A stretch of 34,297 bases of DNA from Bacteroidales bacterium. Lineage in GTDB: Bacteria; Bacteroidota; Bacteroidia; Bacteroidales; P3. This document shows, piece by piece, positions 15,707 through 23,070 of this stretch. A model generated the notes under the pieces. That model had not been told where the DNA came from, made no database searches, and saw nothing but the letters and a program-made list of their open reading frames with translations. The translations under genes were made by a program, and so were the position numbers. The first letter of the stretch is position 1. The number at the start of each line of letters is the position of its first letter. The stretch lies in NCBI GenBank assembly GCA_017962665.1, contig JAGCUU010000011.1:1-34297 (forward strand), given 5' to 3'.

Positions 15707-16687
15707 ATGAAAATAATTGGAACAGGTAGTGCACTTCCGGAGAAAGTAGTGACCAACGACATGCTGGCAGGCTTTCTCGACACCAGTGACAGTTGGATTA
15801 CAACAAGGACGGGCATTCACACCCGCCATCTGCTAAGCAAAGAGACCCTGGGCGAATTAGCCATAACCGCAGCGCAAGCAGCAATAGAATCATCGGGAAT
15901 CGCCCCCGAAGAGATTGATTATCTAATCTGCTCTAACGTGGCCAACAGCTACGTATCTCCCTCATTGGGCAGCATTTTATTGGCCCCTCTGGGCTGCTGC
16001 TGCCCCTGCTTTGACCTGAACGGAGCCTGCGCAGGACTGATTTATTCGCTTGACATTGCCGACTCATTCATAAAAACCGGAAGAGCAAAGAACATTTTGA
16101 TTGTTGCCGCCGAAGAACCTTCAAGATTCTGCAACTGGCACGAGAGAGAGACTTCGGTGCTGTTTGGCGACGGAGCCTCGGCGCTGATGGTTACAGAGGG
16201 CGAAGGATTCAAGGATTTCCGACTAACCGGCGACACCCATACCGACGTGCTATACTACAAACGTTCATTGGAAACAACCCCGTTCGACCGTGTGGAAGAA
16301 AAGACCATGCCGTTGGTGATGCAGGGAAGGGAAGTCTTCAAACTCGCCGTAAGAGCCTGTATCAAAGACGTCGACACTGTGCTGGAGCACAACAGACTGA
16401 AAGGCGACGACATCGACCTTTATCTGCTGCACCAGGCCAACCTGCGAATCATCGACTCCATCCGCGAACATCTGGAGCAGCCAAAAGAAAAATTTCCGAC
16501 CAACCTGCAGAACTACGGCAACACCTCGTCCGCAAGCATAGGAATACTGATTGACGAGTTGTCAAGAGAAGGAAAATTAAAAGATGGCATGACTCTGCTT
16601 CTCAGTGCCTTCGGAGGAGGATTTGTTACTGGAGCCGCATTGATGAAATGGAGCGAGATAAAGTACAAAGATACCGCAAATGAATAA
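15707..16687 (+). CDS. fabH: Beta-ketoacyl-ACP synthase III (FabH-like)
   Basis: A 326-residue thiolase-fold condensing enzyme. The KAS III triad is complete: C108 (DLNGACAGLIYSL), H242 (LLHQANLRII) and N272 (NYGNTSSASIG). It should join an acyl-CoA primer with malonyl-ACP to start chain growth. The N-terminal IGTGSALPEKVVTND and the WITTRTGIHTR loop are typical for FabH. A run of four cysteines (GCCCPCFDLNGAC, 97-108) precedes the active site, more than in most relatives. It is the first gene of the eight-gene operon, with fabF following after 50 bases. In many bacteria fabH sits with plsX/rpmF; here it does not, which suggests a second, specialised copy. The primer is unknown. Confidence 0.92.
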   Translation: MKIIGTGSALPEKVVTNDMLAGFLDTSDSWITTRTGIHTRHLLSKETLGELAITAAQAAIESSGIAPEEIDYLICSNVANSYVSPSLGSILLAPLGCCCPCFDLNGACAGLIYSLDIADSFIKTGRAKNILIVAAEEPSRFCNWHERETSVLFGDGASALMVTEGEGFKDFRLTGDTHTDVLYYKRSLETTPFDRVEEKTMPLVMQGREVFKLAVRACIKDVDTVLEHNRLKGDDIDLYLLHQANLRIIDSIREHLEQPKEKFPTNLQNYGNTSSASIGILIDELSREGKLKDGMTLLLSAFGGGFVTGAALMKWSEIKYKDTANE

Positions 16688-16737
16688 TTGTTAACCTAAA
16701 ATAACCCTATAACTTAAACACGAAAACAATAAACGAT

Positions 16738-17976
16738 ATGAAAAGAGTTGTTATTACCGGACTTGGATGCATTTCGCCGCTGGGCAACAATGTGAATACC
16801 ATGTGGGACGAATTGCTGAAGGGCACATGTGCAATTGACTTCATCAAATCGCTAAATACAGATAACCTTACGGTGAAAGTCGCCGCAGAAGTAAAAGATT
16901 TCGCACCCGAAGAATATGGCATCGACAAAGCCATGATACGTCACAACGATCGCTATGCACTCTATGCTCTCGCTGCAGCTTCGCAAGCAATGCAAGACAG
17001 CGGCCTTGAGGTAGGAAAAGACGTGGATTCGAGCCGTTTCGGCTGCGCAATAGGATCAGGTATCGGCGGAATACAGACATTCTGCCGCGAGCACACATCG
17101 ATGCTTGAAAACGGCCCACGCCGCGTTTCACCGCTCTTCATCCCTGAAATGATTGCAAATATTGCTTCGGGCAACACAGCCATCATGTTCCACGCCGAAG
17201 GGCCGAACCTGCCAGTAGTAACAGCCTGTGCCACAGGAACCCACAGTGTGGGAGAAGCATACAGGATGATACGCGAAGGCAGAGCCGACGCCATGATTAC
17301 AGGAGGAGCAGAAGCTGCTATCACCGAAATATCCATAGCAGGATTTGCCAACAGCAAAGCTCTGTCGACAAGCGCCGATCCCATGGCGGCATCCCTGCCG
17401 TTTGACATGAGGAGGAAAGGCTTCGTCATGGGCGAAGGTGCCGGTGTCATGATACTTGAAGACTATGAGGTTGCCAAGAAAAGAGGCGCCCATATCTATG
17501 CCGAGGTGACTGGCTACGGCAACAGCTGCGACGCTTTCCACTACACAGCCCCTCGTGCCGATGCAAAATGCGCCACGAACTGCATACGCTGGGCTCTGGA
17601 AGAATCAGGCTACAAAGCTGGCGAGAAAGTTTATATCAACGCTCACGGAACAGGCACACCTCTAAATGACAAAACCGAGACGCTTGCCATCAAACAGGCT
17701 ATGGGAGAGGAGGAAGCCCGCAAAGCCGTCATAAGCAGCACAAAATCCATGATGGGACACATGCTTGGCGCAACTGGAGCCATAGAGATGGTCATCTGTG
17801 CCAAAACCCTGCAAAGCGGCAAGGTCGCCCCGACGATACACTTGGACGAGCCAGACCCAGAATGCGACCTTGACTATACGCCACATACCGCACGCGACTT
17901 CAATGCCGACATGACCATCAGCAACTCCTTCGGTTTCGGCGGCCAGAACGCTTGCGTAGCACTAAGAAAAATCTAA
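16738..17976 (+). CDS. fabF: Beta-ketoacyl-ACP synthase II (FabF-like)
   Basis: A 412-residue elongating ketosynthase with the Cys-His-His triad and conserved lysine in place: C164 (TACATGTHS), H303 (NAHGTGTPLND), K336 and H341 (KSMMGHMLGATGA). The C-terminal NSFGFGGQNA is the usual glycine-rich gate. It condenses malonyl-ACP with acyl-ACP in each elongation round. The length is normal for FabF and there is no sign of a chain-length-factor replacement. It is not next to rnc or acpP in the common acpP-fabF-rnc arrangement but inside the fab-etf-acd operon. Whether it elongates ordinary fatty acids or a special chain cannot be told from the active site. Confidence 0.92.
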   Translation: MKRVVITGLGCISPLGNNVNTMWDELLKGTCAIDFIKSLNTDNLTVKVAAEVKDFAPEEYGIDKAMIRHNDRYALYALAAASQAMQDSGLEVGKDVDSSRFGCAIGSGIGGIQTFCREHTSMLENGPRRVSPLFIPEMIANIASGNTAIMFHAEGPNLPVVTACATGTHSVGEAYRMIREGRADAMITGGAEAAITEISIAGFANSKALSTSADPMAASLPFDMRRKGFVMGEGAGVMILEDYEVAKKRGAHIYAEVTGYGNSCDAFHYTAPRADAKCATNCIRWALEESGYKAGEKVYINAHGTGTPLNDKTETLAIKQAMGEEEARKAVISSTKSMMGHMLGATGAIEMVICAKTLQSGKVAPTIHLDEPDPECDLDYTPHTARDFNADMTISNSFGFGGQNACVALRKI

Positions 17977-21403: not shown

Positions 21404-21432
21404 TTTTGTACTTAGAATCTAATTCGAACGAG

Positions 21433-23070
21433 ATGAATTTTTATACAGATAACGAAAATCTTAGTTTCTACCTCCATCATCCCGATATGGACCAGGTGGT
21501 GGCGGTGAAAGAGAAAAACTACGCCGAATATGGCACTCACCCCGAGGCACCGGCAAATGCAGAAGAAGCCGTAGAGCAGTATGACACAGTGATGCGACTG
21601 CTTGGCGACATCACAGGTGATGTGATTGCCCCCAACGCCGAAGAGGTGGACCATGTAGGCCCCTCTCTGACCAACGGACATGTGGAATATGCACCTGGAA
21701 CACGAAAAAACCTCGACGCATTAATCCAGTCAGGATTGTACGGCATGGCATTGGAAAGAAAATACAACGGACTGAACTTCCCCCGTGTGGTGGAGGTCAT
21801 GGCCGCTGAAATGATAGCACGTGCCGATGTAGGCTTCGCCACAATCTGGGGCCTGCAAGACTGTGCCGAGACAATACAACAATTTGCCAGCGAAGAACTG
21901 AAAGACAAATATCTGCCCCGTATCTACAAGGGAGCCACCTGCTCTATGGACCTTACCGAACCAGATGCAGGAAGCGACCTGCAGTCGGTACGCCTGAAAG
22001 CCACCTGGGACGAAGCTGGCAAATGCTGGAGACTTAACGGAGTCAAGAGATTCATTACCAATGGCGACGCAGATCTACATTTAGTGCTTGCCCGCAGCGA
22101 AGAGGGCACCAATGACGGTCGAGGTTTGAGCTACTTTGTGTTCGACAAGGCAGACGGAGGCATGACCGTTCGCCGTATAGAAAACAAGATGGGCATCAAA
22201 GGCAGCCCTACAGCAGAACTTCAATTCACCAACGCTCCTGCCCAGATTGTAGGTGAAAGGCGACTTGGTCTTATCAAATATGTCATGTCTCTCATGAACG
22301 GGGCACGCCTTGGTGTGGGAGCGCAGAGCATCGGCCTGTGCGAAGCAGCCTGCCGGGAAGCCGAAGCCTATGCGGCAAGCCGGGAACAGTTCGGACACAC
22401 AATAGACAAATTCGTCGCAGTGCAGGACCTTCTGTACCAAATGAGAGCACGTACAGACGGCGCCAGAAGCCTTATGTACGAGACCGCCCGCTATGTGGAC
22501 CTCAGTGCCAGCTCGAAGCCGGCATCACGCATTGCTGACATACTGACACCCCTCGTAAAACTAAACGCCAGCGAGTTCGCCAACAAATGCGCATACGACT
22601 GCATCCAGGTACATGGCGGCAGCGGATTCATGAAAGAATATGCTTGCGAACGCCTCTATCGCGACGCCCGAATCCTGAGCATCTATGAAGGTACCAGCCA
22701 GCTTCAGGTAGTTGCCGCCATGAAGGGCATCGCCAGCGGTGCCTATCTGAAACAGATAGAAAGCTATGACGCCAAAGCCGCTGCATTCGAAGGAATCACC
22801 GACGAGATGCGTCATTGTATGGAGACCTTGCGCAAAGCCACAGAAAGCTACAAGAAACTCTATGAACTTGCAGCAGCTGAATGCACTACCAGTGAGCGTT
22901 TTGAGCACCAGACAAGAGCTCTGACCGAGGTACTTAGCAATATCATTATGGGTTATCTGCTTCTGCTCGACAGCCAGAGAGATGAACGCTTTATGAAGAG
23001 CTGCAAATACTTCGTTAAAGAATCCATCGGAGAGGTCAACAAACACCTCGCCGAACTGGAAAACTGCTAA
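21433..23070 (+). CDS. Long acyl-CoA dehydrogenase family flavoprotein, candidate enoyl-thioester reductase
   Basis: A 545-residue acyl-CoA dehydrogenase. The FAD/substrate loop CSMDLTEPDAGSDLQS (170-185) and the catalytic base E419 in SIYEGTSQLQ are intact. The N-terminal ~70-residue extension (MNFYTDNENLSFYLHHPDMD) and the ~110-residue C-terminal helical tail are typical of a Bacteroidota group normally encoded with etfBA. Such enzymes either oxidise acyl-CoA or, with a bifurcating Etf, reduce enoyl-CoA. Here it is the last gene of an ACP-based synthase operon that lacks FabI, FabK or FabV, so enoyl-ACP (or enoyl-CoA) reduction is a plausible role; this is inference. The frame is open from a TTG at 21406, but ATG 21433 is the family start. 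A strong terminator follows at 23087. Confidence 0.9.
   Translation: MNFYTDNENLSFYLHHPDMDQVVAVKEKNYAEYGTHPEAPANAEEAVEQYDTVMRLLGDITGDVIAPNAEEVDHVGPSLTNGHVEYAPGTRKNLDALIQSGLYGMALERKYNGLNFPRVVEVMAAEMIARADVGFATIWGLQDCAETIQQFASEELKDKYLPRIYKGATCSMDLTEPDAGSDLQSVRLKATWDEAGKCWRLNGVKRFITNGDADLHLVLARSEEGTNDGRGLSYFVFDKADGGMTVRRIENKMGIKGSPTAELQFTNAPAQIVGERRLGLIKYVMSLMNGARLGVGAQSIGLCEAACREAEAYAASREQFGHTIDKFVAVQDLLYQMRARTDGARSLMYETARYVDLSASSKPASRIADILTPLVKLNASEFANKCAYDCIQVHGGSGFMKEYACERLYRDARILSIYEGTSQLQVVAAMKGIASGAYLKQIESYDAKAAAFEGITDEMRHCMETLRKATESYKKLYELAAAECTTSERFEHQTRALTEVLSNIIMGYLLLLDSQRDERFMKSCKYFVKESIGEVNKHLAELENC

Follow-up and report, generated by a model that had tools for sequence, protein, structure and literature searches.

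Most bacteria cannot do without an enoyl-acyl carrier protein (ACP) reductase, which also serves as a drug target; the enzymes known for this step are FabI with its kin among the short-chain dehydrogenases/reductases (SDRs), FabK and FabV. Most enoyl-ACP reductases are SDRs that use NADH or NADPH (PMC9260719), and FabK has an FMN-containing TIM-barrel fold and an NAD(P)H site of its own (PMC8626469). The 34,297-nucleotide stretch of Bacteroidales DNA that was analyzed here in its entirety (contig JAGCUU010000011.1; hereinafter, the window) encodes an operon in which fatty acid synthesis (fab) genes adjoin the genes for the two subunits of an electron transfer flavoprotein (ETF; EtfB and EtfA) and an acyl-CoA dehydrogenase-family protein (ACAD). 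Among the closest described systems are the bifurcating complexes of EtfAB with butyryl-CoA dehydrogenase (5ol2, 4kpu/4l1f) and the caffeyl-CoA reductase CarCDE (6fah), which consist of the same three subunit families. We think it quite probable that EtfAB/ACAD, rather than FabI, FabK or FabV, is the enoyl-ACP reductase of a type II fatty acid synthase module encoded by this operon. In the proposed cycle, FabH and FabF would condense, FabG would reduce, FabZ would dehydrate and ACAD would reduce trans-2-enoyl-ACP, with a reduced pyridine nucleotide supplying the electrons, which would reach ACAD via the flavins of EtfB and EtfA. We infer the ACP-bound substrate, the direction of the reaction, the electron donor and the binding of the regulator discussed below.

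The operon had been described in an initial annotation, made from the sequence alone, as eight same-strand genes, and this is borne out by Pfam and NCBIfam hidden Markov model (HMM) scans:

15707..16687, plus strand: fabH, beta-ketoacyl-ACP synthase III (TIGR00747, 304.5 bits, cut-off 292.1)
16738..17976, plus strand: fabF, beta-ketoacyl-ACP synthase II (TIGR03150, 558.9 bits, cut-off 493.75)
18011..18433, plus strand: fabZ-type 3-hydroxyacyl-ACP dehydratase (NF000582, 117.5 bits, cut-off 113; TIGR01750, 108.5 bits, under the cut-off of 155.15)
18461..19210, plus strand: fabG, 3-oxoacyl-ACP reductase (TIGR01830, 322.9 bits, cut-off 297.75)
19251..19502, plus strand: acpP, second acyl carrier protein (TIGR00517, 92.5 bits, cut-off 70.45)
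19552..20352, plus strand: etfB, ETF beta subunit (PF01012; motifs DGDTAQVGP and SPT, ARFAG at the RxFxG site)
20378..21403, plus strand: etfA, ETF alpha subunit (PF01012, PF00766; 5ol2_A, 292 bits)
21433..23070, plus strand: acd, acyl-CoA dehydrogenase-family protein (PF00441, PF02770, PF02771, C-terminal PF12186; 4l1f, 173.8 bits)

These genes include a type II fatty acid synthase elongation module in which FabH, FabF, FabG and ACP each exceed the curated cut-offs, and none of the eight is FabI, FabK or FabV in the Pfam and NCBIfam scans, as initially claimed. The starts of fabG (18461), acpP (19251), etfA (20378) and acd (21433) follow our own reading rather than the mechanical list of open reading frames (ORFs); with these likely starts, the intergenic gaps are 25-50 bases, so that the upper end of the 22-50 bases given originally stands and the lower end does not. 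The claim of intact catalytic residues agrees with the motifs seen by eye in the translations: GACAGL, LLHQAN and GNTSSAS in FabH; TACATG, NAHGTG and MGHMLGA in FabF; GHFP...E in FabZ; YSASK in FabG; GADSLD in ACP; and IYEGT in ACAD. The description of the operon as a ‘self-contained' acyl synthase has to be dropped: the window operon lacks fabD, and six related loci carry fabD ahead of etfB within the fab-etfBA-acd operon (the one scanned, L134, scores 313 bits with TIGR00128, cut-off 260.9).

The window is contig C31 of a 1.88-Mb genome that is 76.6% complete. A FabI concealed among the SDRs of this genome was considered and rejected: none of the six SDR matches is FabI, and a search of the genome with a FabI protein was empty. 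The FabG-like proteins among these matches are the operon FabG and an FlxB-type reductase only. Contig C18 (L002, L089-L092) carries a flexirubin-type cluster with the FlxA tyrosine ammonia-lyase (806.5 bits, cut-off 700), the FlxB reductase (382.8 bits, cut-off 340) and four ketosynthase matches.

The lack of a known enoyl reductase extends to the genus. The family sample consisted of 149 genomes, 91 of which, including the window genome, belong to the genus (completeness is 95% or higher for 38 of the 91); we assume from the equal settings that the same 149 genomes were covered across the searches. FabI, FabK and FabV were found in none of the 91, in agreement with the initial expectation that genomes with the operon lack fabI and fabK elsewhere. 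The FabI HMM at 1e-30 matched one genome of the 149 (G017, from another genus) and none of the genus, and a Bacteroidales FabI-type protein, taken from G017, matched at 1e-20 only G017 itself; FabK at 1e-20 matched 25 of the 149 genomes, none of them in the genus. The FabI queries do work in this order because the HMM at 1e-25 matches 108 of 148 genomes across the order and the FabI-type protein matches 10 of the 41 genomes behind the loci from named records, with 64-73% identity. Nevertheless, the HMM scores of the Bacteroidales FabI are only 93-134 bits, under the cut-off of 370, and three genera (g28, g35 and g41) each contain one match and one miss at 1e-25; some of the order-level FabI negatives are probably threshold losses. 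Matches to ACAD at 0.001, weak ones included, come from 148 of the 149 family genomes, and an ACAD ortholog, defined by E-value and identity with partial ones counted, was found in 82 of the 91 genus genomes; at the order level, ACAD was found in 33 of the 57 genomes searched.

The association of etfBA-acd with fab genes is widely conserved. In the 80 best ACAD loci, for which the linkage classes were assigned by us from named records, fab genes adjoin etfB-etfA-acd in 42, the genes are unlinked in 23, and the contig edge is too near in 15. The named relatives are mostly uncultured Bacteroidales, many of them ruminant-derived. Altogether, 68 linked loci were found besides the window, 58 of these with distinct ACADs. 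The conserved gene order that had been anticipated holds for the linkage itself but not for the exact order, which is shuffled into 13 detected strings (those without acpP or fabZ may reflect missed short matches). The main strings are fabH-fabF-fabZ-fabG-etfB-etfA-acd, with or without acpP; its variant with fabD ahead of etfB, in the six loci mentioned above; fabH-fabF-fabZ-etfB-acpP-etfA-acd-fabG, in 10 loci; and acpP-fabF-fabH-etfB-etfA-acd, in two. With the linkage conserved and no known reductase found in the genus, EtfAB/ACAD indeed stands where an enoyl reductase would be expected, as originally put forward.

The same slot is occupied by a known type of enoyl reductase in other genomes. 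In G156 (locus L267) and G245 (locus L233), which belong to two other families, a FabK-type gene lies inside the arrangement LytTR|fabH-fabK-fabF-fabZ and etfBA-acd is absent from this operon, that is, a FabK-type gene replaces etfBA-acd in a related operon. The FabK-type proteins score 431 (L267) and 444 bits (L233), just under the cut-off of 453.1, and these scores (432 and 444 in the genome search) are the best of the 79 genomes searched, with the other FabK matches at 360 bits or less; of the 20 stretches fetched around FabK, the remaining 19 show no match to fabH, fabF, fabZ or fabG. In the FabF tree (26 rows), five etfBA-acd operons with the order fabH-fabF-fabZ-etfB-acpP form a group with L267 (support 100/98), which L233 joins at 96/96; given the long-branch flag on L267, its exact position is less sure than the clade. 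A single clade at 100/100 holds all rows except L038, L137 and L087; in L038 and L137, the FabF linked to etfBA-acd falls outside the operon clade and closer to the acpP-fabF-rnc type. In two further loci (L268 and L269), a lone FabK-like gene is adjoined by a different ACAD (30-31% identity) with Etf-like genes.

The ETF/ACAD set is again tied to enoyl reduction by three loci from FabI-bearing genomes of other families (L230, L231 and L232), in which fabI adjoins etfB-etfA-acd, in the same-strand order fabI-etfB-etfA-acd in the case of L230 and L231. Of the 19 FabI-bearing order genomes searched, 14 also encode ACAD, on different contigs in 11 of these. Furthermore, part of the genus encodes a distant ACAD (∼50% identity) that forms its own 17-row clade (SH-aLRT 100 in a quick tree), and in three loci (L127, L182 and L184), this distant etfBA-acd set follows the same LytTR|fabHFZG arrangement, from which it is separated by a nitroreductase-family gene (9005-9757 in L127, where it matches PF00881). 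The presence of a second etfBA-acd set at the same site points to function rather than an inherited neighborhood. No fab genes were found near the distant ACAD in the other 14 of the 17 within the stretches fetched, which in some cases stop at a contig edge. The nitroreductase-family gene was considered as the missing reductase and rejected given that it lies between fabG and etfB in only three loci; the gene for a PMT-family membrane protein inserted between fabG and etfB in L182 (9564-11333) was rejected likewise, being found there in only one locus.

Linkage and the absence of known reductases go together. The 41 genomes behind the named loci include 18 linked and 22 unlinked ones, along with one (G321) in which the locus is at a contig edge and neither FabI nor a FabK-like gene is present. 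FabI is found in none of the 18 linked genomes, and a FabK-like gene in two, whereas 19 of the 22 unlinked genomes contain either FabI or a FabK-like gene scoring 240 bits or more (with an internal stop in four of these FabK-like genes) and three contain neither. The ACAD tree covers 117 of the 161 ACAD proteins, namely, those whose genome was searched, with identical ones taken once, and 95 of its rows have both states known; the other 22 rows, in which the linkage or the reductase state was not clear, do not enter the counts. Among the 95, linked loci are without FabI and FabK in 40 cases and with one of them in two, compared with 26 and 27, respectively, for the unlinked loci (Fisher p 4e-7, with kin counted as independent).

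Several points weigh against the assignment of enoyl-ACP reduction to EtfAB/ACAD. All functions are inferred from sequence and gene context, CoA esters are the usual substrates of the ACAD family, and no residue marking ACP use was found in the ACAD. The window genome itself is incomplete. An ACAD ortholog was not found in nine of the 91 genus genomes, two of them 97% complete, although incompleteness alone predicts 7.5 misses (the probability of nine or more is 0.33). The FabV search at 0.001, which matched none of the 91 genus genomes and yielded four weak matches among the 149, none above the cut-off, is without a positive control because none of the 14 control genomes matched FabV; moreover, the curated FabK cut-off is not passed by any FabK match in any searched relative. 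Two linked genomes (G299 and G303) encode a separate FabK-like gene (317-318 bits). FabI and FabK are also both missing from 26 genomes in which the ACAD is unlinked, so that the absence of the reductases is wider than the linkage; either the same role is performed by the unlinked set or there is an unrecognized enoyl reductase. The kinship-corrected test includes six pairs only and has no power to decide. Finally, six order-level genomes (G149, G151, G190, G249, G256 and G273; 94-99% complete) are without FabI (1e-25), FabK (1e-20) and ACAD (1e-60), and this number grows to nine if FabK-like matches below 170 bits are discounted; in the six, FabI may have been missed or another, unrecognized enoyl reductase may be present.

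These genomes, in which some enzyme may have gone unrecognized, lend some credence to the possibility that an unrecognized enoyl-ACP reductase encoded elsewhere performs the housekeeping role, with EtfAB/ACAD acting on a side branch, for instance, making or trimming a special acyl chain. The window genome also contains a separate acpP-fabF-rnc locus, with 41% identity between its FabF and the operon FabF and 51% identity, over 71 residues, between the two ACPs; the specialized chain suggested initially is retained as an alternative because of this locus. Still, we consider the side branch improbable: a FabK-type gene occupies the same slot in related operons, the order-level threshold probably misses some FabI, and the operon FabG is the only one found in the genome besides the FlxB-type reductase.

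The sequences of EtfAB and ACAD bear on the mechanism. The best solved relatives of EtfB are bifurcating ETFs (6fah, 5ol2 and 4kpu), and those closest to EtfAB are bifurcating as well (5ol2, 6fah, 4kpu, 7qh2 and 7koe); the matches of EtfA also include 3ih5, an alpha subunit for which the deposit name does not claim bifurcation. The described marks of bifurcating ETFs (PMC9232219; see also PMC5691135) include, in EtfB, the b-FAD motif DGDTAQVGP, the arm anchor SPT and the NAD site RxFxG. The first of these is present in the window and in all 150 segments compared, which were preselected by DGDTAQ, and the second reads GSPTKV in the window and is present in 148 of the 150. At the third site, 124 of the 150 segments match the search pattern, 63 of them R-first (some genomes are counted twice); the window departs from RxFxG and reads ARFAG, as do 31 other segments. 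Such a shifted NAD motif (ARFAG, MRFAG or KRFAG) is seen in much of the linked clade, and it may conceivably reflect the use of another donor, such as NADPH. The EtfA arginine that contacts N5 of b-FAD is kept, with IRPAFGG of the window aligned to TRPAFGG that contains R136 of 5ol2 (C. difficile; the position was counted by us).

In the ACAD, the N-terminal, middle and C-terminal domains are present, and the glutamate of IYEGT, the catalytic residue of acyl-CoA dehydrogenases, is invariant in all 19 aligned rows (of the original 24 rows, one was dropped for a stop codon and four as a precaution). A charged loop of ∼18-24 columns (alignment columns 371-388, at about 22513 in the window) is present in most relatives and missing in the window, its nearest kin and L041.

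As judged from these features, reduction of enoyl-ACP by EtfAB/ACAD is likely, and ferredoxin coupling may accompany it: the marks of bifurcation are mostly kept, but the RxFxG site is altered and such homologs need not bifurcate (PMC5861303). Bifurcation, in which EtfAB/ACAD would spend two NADH, saturate enoyl-ACP and reduce ferredoxin in every elongation cycle, can be entertained only tentatively. The bifurcating butyryl-CoA dehydrogenase complexes among the best solved relatives, and the unlinked etfBA-acd sets that occur across Bacteroidales, would also fit a CoA-level butyryl/acyl-CoA dehydrogenase of butyrate-type fermentation that merely shares a promoter with the fab genes. This appears very unlikely: thiolase, 3-hydroxybutyryl-CoA dehydrogenase and crotonase are absent among the eight operon genes, the ACADs linked to fab genes fall into two distant clades and their FabF partners into two types, and the genus would be left without a known enoyl-ACP reductase. 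Still less probable is the opposite direction, with ACAD oxidizing acyl-ACP to place a double bond and the electrons exiting via Etf, in a manner similar to Helicobacter FabX, which has a different flavoprotein fold. Flavoenzymes acting on acyl-ACP are known, and FabX dehydrogenates decanoyl-ACP, but it is said to need oxygen (PMC8626469), NADH is the source that feeds electrons to bifurcating ETFs (PMC5691135), and the cycle would remain without an enoyl reductase.

The operon is flanked by a regulator and a terminator:

14651..15511, minus strand: LytTR-type DNA-binding regulator, divergent from the operon (PF04397, 48.3 bits)
15544..15595, plus strand: three TTTYACC-like direct repeats with a 20-base period, between the regulator and fabH, putative LytTR operator (pattern by eye)
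about 23084..23123, plus strand: intrinsic terminator at the operon end (-25.5 kcal/mol, z -7.6)

The start of the regulator is 15553 in the ORF list, and the likely ATG is, in our reading, at 15511. The regulator is divergent ahead of fabH in 47 of the 58 distinct linked loci. A chance neighborhood was rejected given that the regulator is present in 55 of the 126 loci, compared with at most nine for each of the 12 other neighboring window proteins. It would control the operon, probably via the repeats with the 20-base spacing. The pattern was defined by eye after the sequences were seen and counted afterwards: 36 of 48 stretches upstream of fabH, those of both FabK operons among them, contain two or more TTTYRCC-like repeats at a period of 20 to 23, compared with 0.2% of block shuffles. 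The strict pair, with a period of exactly 20, occurs in 26 of the 46 linked loci with the regulator (in 25, shortly upstream of fabH), in none of the 12 linked loci without it, in one of 67 unlinked ACAD loci (1,132 kb), in none of nine short FabI loci and in none of 19 other FabK loci; of the two FabK operons, L267 has it and L233 does not. The strong terminator reported initially is confirmed, with none of 200 shuffles folding as well; a simple terminator scanner missed it, but it is visible in the sequence. A sigma-70 promoter scan yielded eight hits against 8.7 expected. Farther out, the window encodes a flavodoxin/ferredoxin-type fusion upstream of the operon (11957-12715) and a large fused FAD/iron-sulfur oxidoreductase downstream (26331-29552), each matched in only six of the 126 loci.

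If the proposed role is correct, the ETF/ACAD lineage adds an unrelated class of enoyl-ACP reductase to the known list, membrane synthesis without FabI or FabK in many uncultured gut Bacteroidales is explained, lipid synthesis could be linked to ferredoxin, and the etfBA-acd sets and ACADs that are widespread in Bacteroidales gain a concrete proposed role. Should bifurcation hold as well, lipid synthesis would conserve energy, in what would be, to our knowledge, the first energy-conserving fatty acid synthase. The novelty, if confirmed, is a new enzyme class within a known cycle. By title or the start of the abstract, no description of an ETF/ACAD enoyl-ACP reductase was found in the literature covered, with subscription papers and preprints mostly outside that coverage, and the terms ‘flavoprotein' and ‘acyl-CoA dehydrogenase' are absent from the passages covered of a review on bacterial enoyl reductases (PMC9260719).

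Compared with the described systems, EtfAB/ACAD would perform the same reaction as FabI, FabK and FabV with proteins of other families. The acryloyl-CoA reductase AcrCAB of Clostridium propionicum provides the best NCBIfam models for EtfA and ACAD and the second best for EtfB, with all three window scores well under the equivalog cut-offs of the AcrA, AcrB and AcrC models (299.7 against 600, 240.2 against 640 and 211.6 against 475); the substrate of AcrCAB is a CoA ester, and this system is not known to include fab genes. AcrCAB is apparently non-bifurcating (PMC5861303). Prolyl-ACP dehydrogenase (4irn) belongs to the ACAD family too, and matches the window ACAD with 117.7 bits, compared with 173.8 for the best match. 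Such carrier-protein ACADs act on carrier-bound acyl groups as oxidative natural-product enzymes, and we know of none that is encoded, together with an ETF of its own, in an operon for fatty acid elongation. The window set resembles the bifurcating butyryl-CoA dehydrogenase complexes and caffeyl-CoA reductase in DGDTAQVGP and SPT of EtfB, the R136-equivalent of EtfA and the IYEGT glutamate of ACAD. Unlike in these systems, the RxFxG site of the window reads ARFAG, Pfam shows no ferredoxin domain on EtfA, ACAD carries an extra C-terminal PF12186 domain, and the entire set is linked to ACP-dependent fab genes.

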